A DNA stretch of 29,458 bases from a virus. Made by a program: the position numbers and the translations under genes. Below, in pieces: positions 1,243-27,096 of the stretch. The notes beneath the pieces were generated by a model that was not told where the DNA came from, ran no database searches, and worked only from the letters and a program-made list of their open reading frames with translations. The stretch spans positions 2,366 through 31,823 of the IMG/VR virus record IMGVR_UViG_3300030380_001903; one strand, 5' to 3'. Numbering within the stretch: the first letter of the stretch is position 1; each line of letters starts with the position of its first letter.

Positions 1243-1518
1243 TTAAAAGGGTAAATCATTTGACGACTCCCAGGCGTCTGACTCTTGCTTTACAGGCTGT
1301 GCTTGACTTTCTGTATCAGGCTTCCAAGTATCAACAGAAACAGCAACGTTTTTTCCGTATTGGTCAGTCACGTCATTTACGTTTATATTTAATTTGATAA
1401 ACTTATTACCGTTAAACTCTTGAATGTAATCTTTAATTTTAGACGGGTTAATTGTTACTTTTATCCAATTGTCTGTCATTTTTTTACCGCTTCCGCAGTA
1501 TATTGTTTTTTCTTTCAT
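1243..1518 (-). CDS. Single-stranded DNA-binding protein-like
   Basis: A 91-aa protein whose C-terminus (DAWESSNDLPF) has the acidic-to-hydrophobic tip of SSB proteins, where a final DxPF recruits partner proteins. The front part (residues 1-60, including WIKVTINPSKIKDYI and KFIKLNINVNDV) is beta-rich and fits a compact OB-fold, followed by a Gln/Glu/Ser-rich linker (about 67-83). It is short for an SSB (bacterial SSBs are about 170 aa), as often seen in phages. The position beside exonuclease, annealing-like and resolvase-like genes supports a role in recombination and replication. The OB fold is inferred; the tail is seen directly. Confidence 0.6.
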   Translation of the reverse strand: MKEKTIYCGSGKKMTDNWIKVTINPSKIKDYIQEFNGNKFIKLNINVNDVTDQYGKNVAVSVDTWKPDTESQAQPVKQESDAWESSNDLPF

Positions 1519-1537
1519 TTTTATTTGTTTTTATTTG

Positions 1538-1807
1538 TTAATTTCTTTTTGCTTTTAAAACTCTTGTCGTAAAAAAACCGTCAAATTCAGGAAATTTTTT
1601 CATCATTTTTCTAGCGTAATCAGGTCTATAATTATTATTTACTTTGTATTTATGTCTTTGTTCTAAAGAACTATTCCATCTTATTATCTCAAATATACCA
1701 TTAGCTGAATATTTAGAAAAACCTTTGTCTTTAGCTTCAAAAGTATACTTTTTAAATTGTTTCCATATATGAGGGTTATCTTTGTCGTATGTTTTAAAAT
1801 CTATCAT
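1538..1807 (-). CDS. Conserved phage protein of unknown function
   Basis: An 89-aa protein with KYTFEAKDKGFSKYSANGIF, EIIRW and YKVNNNYRPDYARKMMKKFP, a pattern shared by a common small phage family that has no established function. It is mostly helical with aromatic residues and no transmembrane segment. The gene lies between the YqaJ-like nuclease (12-base gap) and the SSB-like gene (19-base gap), with the A-rich leader seen in this block. Its company suggests DNA metabolism, but no catalytic motif is visible. Confidence 0.6.
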   Translation of the reverse strand: MIDFKTYDKDNPHIWKQFKKYTFEAKDKGFSKYSANGIFEIIRWNSSLEQRHKYKVNNNYRPDYARKMMKKFPEFDGFFTTRVLKAKRN

Positions 1808-23874: not shown

Positions 23875-24670
23875 TATCTACGTTTTAATTTTTGCATTGA
23901 TTCACTATGTGCCTGTCTTTCCATTTTTTGTTTATCACTATAATAAGCAACTACGTTTAACGCTTTAATAACTTCCCAAGCTAAAATCTCATCCCATTTG
24001 TCAATCCTACTATTTGTAAGATTGTCTAACGTTACCCACCAACCCCAACGCTCAGCAAATCCAGTTCCTCTTTTGACTCTTTCATTATCGTCTTCGCTTT
24101 CGCTATCAAAGAGGTTTTTATATCGTTTGTTAAGTTCGGTAAGTGATTGTAAAAAAAAACACCTATCGGATAAGCAATTGAAATCGGCATATTTTCGAGA
24201 AAGTTGTCTGCTGTCTCTCTAACGACTTCGCCTGTAACTTTAACGTCCCTCCATCTAAACCGCTTCTTCTCAATTGGTCGGCATATCGTAGTTAGTATTT
24301 TATGAAGGTTGTTAAATATTACTTCTTGATTGTCTTTAGCGTCTTGTAAGATTTCCATATTATTAATGTATTCTCCAAACAATAGTTTTTTAGCGTCTAG
24401 TTTAAACTCATACCAATGAGAACCAATCTTAAAACGTTTGTTCTTTAATGTGTTAGGTAACTCAGTATTTAGAAAAGCTAATTTCTTTTTTATTTTATGA
24501 TAATCGTCTAGACTTACGTTCTTAATAACTTCTTTCTTTTCTCCTGTTAATACACAAAGAATATTAATAACCCTTTGTATGTCACTCATTTCAGTGTTTA
24601 ATATAGGTCTTAGATTAATATACTTTTGTAGCGTTATGTCATCCCAGGACGTTGGTACAGTTATTTCCAT
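23874..24670 (-). CDS. Tail assembly chaperone, long form made by a -1 frameshift
   Basis: A second frame opens where the short chaperone frame runs through a T9 tract. Frame 0 reads GTT TTT TTT TAC; slipping back one base after 24152 gives TTA CAA TCA and continues 92 codons to a stop at 23874-23876. The joined product would be 265 aa (173 from frame 0 plus 92). The extension contains GFAERWGWWVTLDNLTN, DKWDEILAWEVIKALNV and VAYYSDKQKMERQAHS, a pattern resembling C-terminal extensions of Bacteroidetes tail chaperones. It has no suitable ATG of its own upstream, and its stop overlaps the next ATG exactly (TAATG). Analogous to lambda gpG/gpGT. A homopolymer error is the main alternative. Confidence 0.65.
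24032..24670 (-). CDS. Tail assembly chaperone, short form
   Basis: A 212-aa protein starting MEITVPTSWDDITLQKYINL, with VINILCVLTGEKKEVIKNVS and GSHWYEFKLDAKKLLFGEYI, resembling tail assembly chaperones of Bacteroidetes phages. Without frameshift it ends ...KESKEELDLLSVGVGG at 24032. Both short and long forms would coat the tape measure during tail assembly. The gene is first in the tail cluster and is preceded by two terminators and a promoter-like site. Residues 171-173 (VFF) sit at the slippery T9 tract. Confidence 0.7.
   Translation of the reverse strand: MEITVPTSWDDITLQKYINLRPILNTEMSDIQRVINILCVLTGEKKEVIKNVSLDDYHKIKKKLAFLNTELPNTLKNKRFKIGSHWYEFKLDAKKLLFGEYINNMEILQDAKDNQEVIFNNLHKILTTICRPIEKKRFRWRDVKVTGEVVRETADNFLENMPISIAYPIGVFFYNHLPNLTNDIKTSLIAKAKTIMKESKEELDLLSVGVGG
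24150..24160 (-). other. Slippery T9 tract for -1 ribosomal frameshift
   Basis: Minus strand GTTTTTTTTTA (nine T at 24151-24159). Frame 0 codons are GTT TTT TTT TAC; a -1 slip of two tRNA-Phe pairs TTT again and continues as TTA CAA. Homopolymeric T tracts of seven or more are efficient slippery sites. No strong downstream stem was identified by eye. Confidence 0.6.
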
Positions 24671-24673
24671 ATT

Positions 24674-24715
24674 ATTATATATAACAAATTTTTCAATATT
24701 TACAATAAAGACAAA
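24674..24715 (-). promoter_or_regulatory. Promoter-like site before the tail cluster
   Basis: On the minus strand TTTG (24712-24715), a 19-base spacer, then AAAATTTG (24685-24692; TTTG at 24685-24688), followed by TTATATATAAT. Geometry fits the Bacteroidetes TTTG-N19-TAnnTTTG pattern although TA is replaced by AA. The 16-mer ATTTGTTATATATAAT is shared with 15548-15563. The TTTG lies in the tail of the second terminator. The leader to the ATG at 24670 would be very short. Confidence 0.5.
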
Positions 24716-24752
24716 AAAAAAGAGGAAACGCTCTTTTGCCGACTTCCTCTTT
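24711..24752 (-). terminator. Second intrinsic terminator before the tail cluster
   Basis: AAGAGGAA (24744-24751) pairs perfectly with TTCCTCTT (24720-24727) around a 16-base loop, followed on the minus strand by T9 (24713-24721 region). It closes the transcript of the 101-aa gene, in tandem with the hairpin at 24787-24815. Confidence 0.65.
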
Positions 24753-24786
24753 TAATCCTTAATTAAACCAAATCAAAACAAATATA

Positions 24787-24815
24787 CAAAAAAAAAGCTA
24801 CTCGTTAAAGTAGCT
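24787..24815 (-). terminator. First intrinsic terminator after the 101-aa gene
   Basis: On the minus strand AGCTACT (24809-24815) pairs with AGTAGCT (24796-24802) across a 6-base loop and is followed by a run of nine T (24788-24796). It stands 26 bases after the stop of the gene at 24841-25146. Confidence 0.75.
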
Positions 24816-24840
24816 CTTAAATTAGTTTTTGTTTTTTATT

Positions 24841-25146
24841 TTATAGTATAATTGGTTTAGAAAAGTAATTAATTACAGTACCGTTTTTAGTGTGGTTTGT
24901 CATATTCATAACGTGTATGTCTCTAATGTCTTTAACTTGACTAATGTCAATAATTTTCTTTAACGTAAACTCGTTTATATTGTGCTGTAGTAATTGATAG
25001 AAGTTGTTTTCACAAGAAACTAAACAAACCAATTTTTTACGTACATTTATTTTGTCTTGTAAAACTTTTAATATCATTGTTTTAGGTTGTGTTAAATTCT
25101 CTCTTTGTTTTTTAGTTCTGTTAATTTTAAATTTTAAATCTTTCAT
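24841..25146 (-). CDS. Hypothetical protein in an isolated transcription unit
   Basis: A 101-aa, basic protein that I do not recognise. The first 40 residues are Lys/Arg-rich (KFKINRTKKQRENLTQPKTM); the middle holds CLVSCENNFYQLLQHNINEF and DISQVKDIRDIHVMNMTNHT, and it ends NYFSKPIIL. It is cut off from its neighbours: promoter-like site with a 16-bp palindrome upstream (25173-25203), two stacked terminators downstream. Single-gene units like this in phage genomes often hold regulators or accessory (host takeover, anti-defence) genes, but there is no direct evidence here. AT-rich leader (AATTAATTAAAACAAACACA before the ATG). Confidence 0.5.
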   Translation of the reverse strand: MKDLKFKINRTKKQRENLTQPKTMILKVLQDKINVRKKLVCLVSCENNFYQLLQHNINEFTLKKIIDISQVKDIRDIHVMNMTNHTKNGTVINYFSKPIIL

Positions 25147-25172
25147 TGTGTTTGTTTTAATTAATTACAATG

Positions 25173-25203
25173 CTAATATATAAATATATTTATAAACTAC
25201 AAA
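25173..25203 (-). promoter_or_regulatory. Promoter-like site with embedded 16-bp palindrome, before the 101-aa gene
   Basis: On the minus strand TTTG (25200-25203), 19-base spacer, TATATTAG (25173-25180; one mismatch to TAnnTTTG). The spacer contains the perfect palindrome tataaatatatttata (25179-25194). The same palindrome sits at the same place relative to the elements in the promoter at 25839-25870. It would transcribe 24841-25146. Confidence 0.55.
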
Positions 25204-25213
25204 ACATTTTTAA

Positions 25214-25267
25214 GTTTTTTTTTATTTTTTTTATCTCTTCTTTTCTCTTCTTATCTTATCTCTTCTT
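25214..25267. repeat. Pyrimidine tract (purine-rich on the minus strand) next to the iterons
   Basis: About 54 bases made almost only of T and C on the plus strand (poly-T, then tctcttctttt-like repeats), with a few A. It lies directly beside the five 11-bp repeats. A shorter pyrimidine-rich stretch flanks the repeats at 222-240 the same way. Such tracts can unwind or form triplex DNA; this is a possible origin feature. Confidence 0.45.
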
Positions 25268-25322
25268 AATGCTTGGGTATTGCTTAAGCATTGCTTAAGT
25301 ATTGCTTAAGGACTGCTCTACC
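25268..25322. repeat. Five tandem 11-bp iteron-like repeats
   Basis: Five adjacent 11-bp units on the plus strand: aatgcttgggt, attgcttaagc, attgcttaagt, attgcttaagg, actgctctacc (25268-25322). The middle three differ only at the last base. The second unit is identical to the one at 252-262 in the replication gene. Position: intergenic, about 65 bases upstream of the promoter for the 101-aa gene and just after the terminator of the candidate ncRNA. It could be an origin or binding site of the phage initiator, or an operator array. Confidence 0.6.
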
Positions 25323-25377: not shown

Positions 25378-25405
25378 AAAAAAAAAGCCACTTTTTACAG
25401 CGGCT
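25378..25405 (-). terminator. Intrinsic terminator of the candidate ncRNA
   Basis: On the minus strand AGCCGCT (25399-25405) pairs with AGTGGCT (25386-25392) with one G-T wobble, loop of six, followed by about nine T (25378-25386). Confidence 0.7.
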
Positions 25406-25507
25406 ATTTCTTTTTATTATTGTATAATAATTTTACTTTACGTCTAAAGCAACCTATTGTTTAATAGGATTTAAAAAAGTATCTGTAAATAATAGTTAGG
25501 ATTACAG

Positions 25508-25645
25508 TTAGGCTATCAAGGTATTGAAACTATCTACAATATAATATTGCGTATATGTAGTTCTATCTGCCTCCCCAGTTTCAATTGGGTTCATTTTAAA
25601 CTGTGTTTTAAGACTATATTTTTTTTGTCTCCCTTGTCTAAGCAT
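25508..25645 (-). CDS. Possible small ORF within the candidate ncRNA
   Basis: A 45-aa frame from the ATG at 25645: MLRQGRQKKYSLKTQFKMNP, then IETGEADRTTYTQYYIVDSF, ending NTLIA. A second in-frame ATG (MNPIETGEADRTTY...) would give 28 aa. Residue use is protein-like and not merely translated AT sequence, but no family is known, and the same bases form strong hairpins (CAGTTT...AAACTG; CTACA...TGTAG). It may be a real small protein of a short transcript or an accident within an RNA gene. I cannot decide. Confidence 0.25.
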   Translation of the reverse strand: MLRQGRQKKYSLKTQFKMNPIETGEADRTTYTQYYIVDSFNTLIA

Positions 25646-25838
25646 TACCTATTGTCTTGATTACAACATACAATCAGATAGCAATCTTAATATACTAAAT
25701 TAGAATATGTCTTTTTAGACTCAATAATTAACGCAATCTTGCCGTGACTCAGCGTTTTATACTTATAATTTAACTTTTGCTTTCGCAAAAAACAAATTTC
25801 CTATTATTTAAAGAACTCTTGTAAACTTAATTACAGTA

Positions 25839-25870
25839 CAAATATTATAAATATATTTATAACCACCAAA
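25839..25870 (-). promoter_or_regulatory. Promoter-like site with embedded 16-bp palindrome, before the candidate ncRNA
   Basis: On the minus strand TTTG (25867-25870), 19-base spacer, then TAATATTTG (25839-25847), one base longer than TAnnTTTG. The palindrome tataaatatatttata (25846-25861) occupies most of the spacer, exactly as at 25173-25203. It would start an RNA near 25834. Confidence 0.55.
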
Positions 25871-25920
25871 TTATTTTAGAACTTTTTTTAAATTATTTTA
25901 TTCTACCTCTGTAAATTAAT

Positions 25921-27096
25921 TTACCTAATTGAATACCAACCTCGGTTATGTTCCTTTAAATGTATAAGTGCAACGTATCGCAAAGCGTCCATTAAGTGGT
26001 CTAAGCCAATAGGCTTTTGTAAACTATTCCCGTTTTTGTCTGTCGCCCATTTATATGTCCTAAACTCTTTTTTTAAGTTACTACTATTAACAACGTTTAT
26101 GTTATAACGTTTAAGAATGTCTATTCCGTTAAGTATTGAGTCTTTTCCCTTTGCCGCTGGTTTTGCGTTTATGCCTAGTCTATATAACTCTTCTATTGAT
26201 TTAGGTTCAGCACTGTCGCAGATAACCTCATCACGATTAACAATAGGTTTAAGAATTTCTGCCAGGTCTTGATTAGTTAAATTATTTTGATATATAATTT
26301 CTTTAACATATAAGTCTTTGTCTTTTTTATAAACAGCAACACAAGCATTCGGGTCTGTATATCCGAAGTCAAGTCCATACGCTACAAGTTTTGCGTCTGG
26401 CATACTATTAACATATTTAACATTCTCATATATTAATCCACTTATATTTCCGTACTCTCCTAGACCGTATATTTTCCAGAACTCTTTGTCTGTTTGTTTT
26501 AGATATTCTATTTCTTTAATTAATGACTTAGGTAAGAATGAATTGTTTTTATAGTTAGATACTATAACCTCAACGTCTCCGACTTCGTTAGAACGTTTAA
26601 TTTCAATCTCTTGATTAATCCATACTTGCTCATCGTCAGGATTAAAGTCAATAAAGATTTTATTCTCTGTTCTCATTAACAACTGAAAGAACTCCTGTTT
26701 GTATTCTAATTCGTTTGCTTCGTTACAGTATAATATATTTCTTTTAGCACCTCTTAGCTTTTGCTCATCATCTGCCCCTATAAACTCAACAAGACGTTTA
26801 CCTACTCTATATTGTTTTTTAGTTTTATTATGATTGACTAAATTATACCAGCCCTCTTTTTTAAGTATGTCTTCAAAGTCTCTGACAACTGTTCCGTCTA
26901 AGTTCGTACGATATTTACGTACTGTTGTCCATACACCCTCATAACAATATTGACCGTCTCCATAATTGCCACTGATTAACCACAAAGCACACAGTTGATT
27001 TAACGACCAGGTCTTACTACTTCGAGTCCCTCCTCGATTAACTACGATTTTTGATTTACTGTCGTAATTGCGTTCAAAGATTTCAGTCGCTTCCAC
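25921..27096 (-). CDS. terL: Terminase large subunit
   Basis: A 391-aa protein. ATPase motifs: RGGTRSSKT (21-29, Walker A of terminases) and ILYCNEANE (121-129, Walker B with catalytic Glu), then IFIDFNP (147-153, coupling motif). Nuclease motifs: GLDFGYTDP (241-249, Asp243), VICDSAEP (291-298, Asp294) and GLDHLMDALRY (364-374). It cuts and pumps phage DNA into the procapsid through the portal. It matches PBSX/Terminase_3-type proteins in order and size. It overlaps the small subunit by 14 bases. Downstream is the long intergenic region, not the portal; portal lies 13 kb away. Confidence 0.9.
   Translation of the reverse strand: MEATEIFERNYDSKSKIVVNRGGTRSSKTWSLNQLCALWLISGNYGDGQYCYEGVWTTVRKYRTNLDGTVVRDFEDILKKEGWYNLVNHNKTKKQYRVGKRLVEFIGADDEQKLRGAKRNILYCNEANELEYKQEFFQLLMRTENKIFIDFNPDDEQVWINQEIEIKRSNEVGDVEVIVSNYKNNSFLPKSLIKEIEYLKQTDKEFWKIYGLGEYGNISGLIYENVKYVNSMPDAKLVAYGLDFGYTDPNACVAVYKKDKDLYVKEIIYQNNLTNQDLAEILKPIVNRDEVICDSAEPKSIEELYRLGINAKPAAKGKDSILNGIDILKRYNINVVNSSNLKKEFRTYKWATDKNGNSLQKPIGLDHLMDALRYVALIHLKEHNRGWYSIR

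Follow-up and report, generated by a model that had tools for sequence, protein, structure and literature searches.

The closest described systems are the morons of tailed phages (Hendrix, Juhala; described in PMC6814406), the phage RNAs ROOL and GOLLD, of which one ROOL example has 659 nt and GOLLD often more than 800 nt (PMC12286853), and the pRNA of phage phi29. The locus described here, located behind a phage gene for the large terminase subunit (terL), resembles a moron in being an extra unit with its own promoter, inserted where relatives have two genes side by side, and swapped between lineages. The unit also has its own terminator, which remains within the likeness to morons. Unlike theirs, its cargo is a structured RNA and not a protein, and since no integrase was found in the carrier records, which are incomplete, the RNA is not evidently a prophage gene, a further difference. 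It shares with ROOL and GOLLD (PMC12286853) the character of a large, highly structured, phage-encoded non-coding RNA, as predicted from its sequence. In contrast to them, it is about 455 nt long and so falls short of a size over ~550 nt, it lacks a tRNA-island neighbourhood (there is no tRNA gene in the window or the carriers), and it does not match the covariance model of either family, even at permissive thresholds. Like phi29 pRNA it is a phage non-coding RNA, in this case adjoining the packaging motor gene, but it is not tied to one terminase, is absent from most close relatives by TerL, and differs in size.

The window, meaning the whole stretch of 29,458 nucleotides that was analysed, is part of a 31.8-kb IMG/VR record. 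Its TerS and TerL genes both lie on the minus strand, and its TerL is similar to TerLs of Bacteroides and Flavobacterium phages, at less than 60% identity. The host of the carrier phages is probably a member of the marine Flavobacteriaceae. The interval behind terL (25921-24670) consists of two units, the first of which encodes the RNA:

25921-27096, minus strand: terL, 391 aa (PHROG terminase large subunit, E 1.8e-37), upstream neighbour of the RNA unit
25903-25915, minus strand: conserved TTTACAGAGGTAG block, just after terL, at the left edge of the slot
25839-25870, minus strand: predicted Bacteroidota-type promoter TTTG-N20-AATATTTG (motif match, and reuse before other cassettes)
25380-25834, minus strand: predicted ncRNA transcript of ~455 nt (from promoter, terminator and homologues)
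25378-25405, minus strand: intrinsic terminator AGCCGCTGTAAAAAGTGGCT followed by T9 (stem 25386-25405, then 9 T)

The TTTACAGAGGTAG block recurs in L006, L008, L073 and L076 and, in the other lineage introduced below, in L163-L166. A preliminary description of this DNA had proposed a promoter-like site at 25839-25870 and a strong terminator at 25378-25405, enclosing a minus-strand unit of about 450 nt, and all of these elements are found exactly there. The Bacteroidota consensus is TTTG...TAnnTTTG at -33/-7, with the sigma-A element TAnnTTTG at -12 to -5 (PMC9723704). The promoter in the window is one base off this consensus, and that of carrier L163 has a perfect TAnnTTTG. The promoter motif alone occurs in the window at chance frequency (3 against 3.6 expected), so that its support rests on the repeated use of its AT block, TATAAATATATTTATA. 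This block is present in two exact copies, one of them before the second cassette, and in three matches at up to two mismatches (0.18 expected) in the window. It also precedes most of the unrelated small-ORF cassettes in relatives. Placed by the Bacteroidota consensus, transcription is predicted to start at ~25834. The terminator is of a type common to the ORF cassettes of relatives and is conserved there; the unit thus has both a predicted promoter, common to other cassettes, and a terminator of its own.

The same description had located the RNA in a space between terL and the tail module. The next gene (24032-24670), however, could not be shown to be a tail gene, and between it and the RNA unit there is another cassette:

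25262-25319, minus strand: repeats of 11 bp (TTAAGCAATAC) that separate the first cassette from the second
25160-25207, minus strand: predicted promoter of the second cassette (AT block reuse)
24841-25146, minus strand: second cassette, a 101-aa ORF with no Pfam, PADLOC or PHROG match
24793-24818, minus strand: terminator of the second cassette
24717-24753, minus strand: covarying hairpin with a nearly invariant GUCGGC-AAA-GAGCG loop and a T-run, at the right edge of the slot

Among TerL relatives the spacing between terL and the gene that follows ranges from 155 to 1447 nt (155-250 nt in L067, L077, L079 and L021), which places the unit between two genes that are adjacent in related phages. 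Relatives hold in this slot either no cargo, small ORFs or DNA methyltransferases. Typically a promoter and a ~45-nt leader precede a single small ORF, which is followed by a terminator, GAGCCACnGTAAAAAGTGGC or AGAGCTACTTTAACGAGTAGC. These ORFs span 54 to 101 aa and bear no relation to one another, and such cassettes occur singly or in two tandem slots. In the window, the first slot is filled by the RNA where relatives have small-ORF cassettes. Judged by these arrangements, the slot behind terL is a cassette-exchange site. The TTAAGCAATAC repeats are followed on the minus strand by a purine-rich AAGAAGAGATAAGATAAG stretch; this part is variable between phages and is a possible recombination joint.

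Unrelated small proteins of about 50-101 aa, with the same promoter and terminator types, occur in the window (24841-25146) and in L002, L004, L006, L007, L008 and L028, and the series continues in L070, L073, L140, L142 and L143. They are candidate accessory or counter-defence proteins; methyltransferase excepted, the slot proteins tested have no Pfam match over the curated cut-offs and no PADLOC match. DNA methyltransferases lie behind terL in L003, L009, L017, L019, L020, L024, L040-L042, L048, L055-L064, L157 and L161, an assignment seen in many of these loci and tested against Pfam for L157 only. Their variable middle regions suggest exchange of target recognition.

Of 176 sequences, some of which overlap, 121 contain the hairpin at the right edge of the slot, with a single copy per locus, and it occurs in both TerL lineages. 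Across 26 distinct sequences each of its 8 stem pairs shows compensated variation around a nearly invariant loop, and none of 500 shuffles reaches its covariation score. One possibility is that the hairpin is a terminator whose loop binds a protein and that it insulates the structural operon. Right after it, and before the next gene, there is a promoter-like match, TTTG-N19-AAAATTTG, at 24685-24715 on the minus strand.

Pattern scans identified eight carriers of the RNA, the window and seven other IMG/VR contigs. A scan with the promoter and the first conserved string gave L151, L157 and L161, and one with two internal strings added L163-L166. The covariance model of the conserved core (R1, below) has strong matches in these eight only, among 42 records. 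The seven other contigs form a second lineage, with TerLs that are ~30% identical to that of the window and have their best named relative in Nonlabens phage P12024L, from seawater (52%). The RNA lies behind terL in all eight, with a methyltransferase intervening in L157 and L161. The gene on the other side of the slot is likewise homologous between the lineages (23% amino acid identity, E 3e-6), which makes the position of the RNA syntenic. For the RNA core, nucleotide identity between lineages is ~77%, against ~30% for TerL and 23% (amino acids) for the next gene; the RNA has therefore most likely moved sideways between the lineages after their divergence. In L151 the RNA follows a promoter of the type that serves the window's second cassette (the RNA of the window and that of L163 have the other type), and in L002 an ORF101 cassette is followed by a leftover copy of the RNA's 3' tail. 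These are the traces expected of exchange at shared promoter and terminator blocks. That the locus is an exchange-slot cassette common to two phage lineages had been missed by the preliminary description.

The nearness to terL in every carrier would suit a packaging RNA like phi29 pRNA, which would assist the adjacent terminase as DNA is packaged. However, among relatives whose TerLs are almost the same (up to 96% identity) most are without the RNA, which accompanies two TerLs that are only 30% identical, and the same site holds unrelated cargo in relatives. It is thus no constant companion of the packaging ATPase, and a packaging role is very improbable.

No named phage carries the RNA, the set of homologues being small; named phages have no similar DNA beyond one 40-nt chance match, and plasmids have no DNA match to it. 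A 17-mer scan of IMG/VR gave only two matches, both by chance and in coding DNA, and three matches in a scan of GTDB genomes, which lack the spacing and the flank similarity of true carriers, were also taken as chance. A further locus, L076, contains the string GTTCTTTAAGTATT and no ORF, yet fails the covariance model and was not counted as a carrier. Its ORF-free cassette (1382-1736, plus strand) has a similar promoter and terminator, a long closing stem and a fold z of about -2, and might represent another kind of RNA cargo of this slot.

The folded part of the transcript is organized as follows:

25476-25816, minus strand: conserved structured core (model R1) of about 330 nt (alignment A3, pair counts, model search)
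25799-25816, minus strand: 5' strand of P1, the long closing stem (partner 25479-25501)
25479-25501, minus strand: 3' strand of P1 (pair counts)
25767-25798, minus strand: P2, hairpin with GNRA tetraloop, GCGAAAGC, kept in homologues
25759-25765, minus strand: 5' strand of P3 (partner 25639-25645; covariation of U-A to C-G)
25639-25645, minus strand: 3' strand of P3 (same pairing evidence)
25628-25631, minus strand: 5' strand of P4 (partner 25610-25613; GAGA/UCUU to GAGG/CCUU, i.e. A-U to G-C)
25574-25589, minus strand: P5, hairpin CCCA..UGGG, nearly invariant
25578-25584 with 25524-25530, minus strand: P6, candidate pseudoknot of the P5 loop UUGAAAC with GUUUCAA, nearly invariant
25569-25572, minus strand: 5' strand of P7 (partner 25510-25513; series C-G, U-G, U-A)
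25534-25560, minus strand: P8, hairpin (CUACA/UGUAG to CUGUA/UACAG, two compensated pairs)
25424-25472, minus strand: lineage-specific 3' tail hairpins, with a copy in L002 behind the ORF101 cassette

A 468-nt stretch folds 4.2 standard deviations better than its dinucleotide shuffles (z -4.2). The cores have z values of -2.4 to -3.9, compared with -1.2 to +2.1 for ORF cassettes in the same slot, and the consensus fold reaches -58 on the transcribed strand versus -38 on the opposite one; both contrasts are independent of the structure having been chosen on alignment A3. This alignment comprises the six distinct cores of the eight carriers (77-98% identical, with 1-nt indels), five of them closely related. 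In a structure of 62 pairs, 98.4% of cells are paired across the six cores. Five pairs have changed on both sides, which none of 500 shuffles equals and which contrasts with no double changes in all slid versions, for a structure chosen on the alignment that also scored it and with much of the covariation being a contrast of the window with the others, since five of the six cores are close kin. Covarying pairs in homologous regions had been named beforehand as the support to look for, and compensatory changes are indeed present in P3, P4, P7 and P8 (8 carriers, 6 distinct cores).

The GAAA tetraloop stem noted earlier corresponds to P2, the loop of which is GAAA, GUAA or GGAA among homologues, so that GNRA is kept with changes in its second base. 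In L165 an extra A inserted at the bulge of P1 permits a continuous stem. P5 and P6 hardly vary and hence have little covariation support, and there are competing partners for 25510-25513 of P7. A helix GCGUUA/UAAUGC from the single-sequence fold of the window is broken in L157 and L165 and was dropped for P3. The claim of at least seven hairpins holds as regards folding, with P2 and P8 conserved, while the two hairpins past 25478 belong to the lineage-specific tail. Similarly, the reported CCTAACT and AAGATTGC repeats are present, but their second copies are not conserved.

The longest frame of the RNA unit in the window has 45 aa, as was stated earlier together with a doubt about it that proves justified: a 1-nt indel disrupts the frame, which is 14 aa long in L151 and absent from the other carriers. 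All frames are riddled with stops, and no relative carrying the RNA has an intact protein gene in its place. The occupation of the same slot by ORF cassettes in relatives could point to a decayed protein cassette or an idle spacer. Yet nucleotide conservation is high across the stops and 1-nt indels, which refutes a decayed gene for these carriers; ~77% conservation between distant lineages, RNA-like covariation, folding unlike that of ORF cassettes and the lack of a conserved frame leave this explanation scarcely credible.

Rfam contains no family matching the RNA at gathering thresholds, and at permissive thresholds nothing exceeds a gathering score. With its covarying fold and its homologues, this supports the original proposal of a candidate new phage ncRNA. 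In size the RNA is within the range of RNAs that serve a protein partner as guide or template (retron msr-msd, TnpB reRNA) and of self-splicing introns. No reverse transcriptase (RVT_1) is found, adjacent or elsewhere, in five carrier records, some incomplete, nor any TnpB family in the carrier records (incomplete), and the group I and II intron covariance models of Rfam do not match. Such an origin is equally hard to credit.

A base-pairing regulatory RNA, antisense or sRNA, directed at phage or host mRNAs deserves more consideration, as the promoter, terminator and U-tail resemble those of a trans-acting sRNA and A-rich unpaired stretches are present. Complementarity to the phage's own transcripts is nevertheless within that of shuffled controls (longest 12 versus 11-16), and a seed-based sRNA would not usually be so large or have so extensively conserved a folded core, making this alternative unlikely. 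In the absence of a target among its own transcripts, protein binding is preferred over base pairing, with modest confidence.

We consider it probable that the locus is an RNA moron: an accessory structured RNA, transcribed on its own and acting in trans, in the exchange slot behind terL. The unit anatomy, the covarying core of ~330 nt, the lack of a conserved frame, the occurrence in two lineages and the replacement by small-protein cassettes are the sequence support for this moron reading. The RNA would be made independently of the neighbouring genes and would act in trans as a stable folded molecule, which would most likely bind or occupy a protein or nucleoprotein of the host or of a competitor. 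From fast-swapped, dispensable slot cargo a role in host takeover or counter-defence is to be expected, and the RNA, which shares its slot with such cargo, may by analogy have this role. Recombination within the promoters, terminators and flanking blocks that these phages share would exchange the cassettes. More tentatively, the RNA could represent a new class of phage RNA: an effector in the conflict of phage and host, made of RNA only or of RNA and protein, that phages trade in a small-protein slot. It might, for example, be a structured RNA that acts as a decoy for, or an inhibitor of, a defence or RNA-processing protein of flavobacteria.

Overall, the small set of known large phage ncRNAs gains a structured class that has no family in Rfam, and the cassette-exchange slots of phages would trade RNAs as well as proteins. 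The interchangeable small proteins and DNA methyltransferases of the same slot provide a natural swap series for testing the use of its cargo to the phage.
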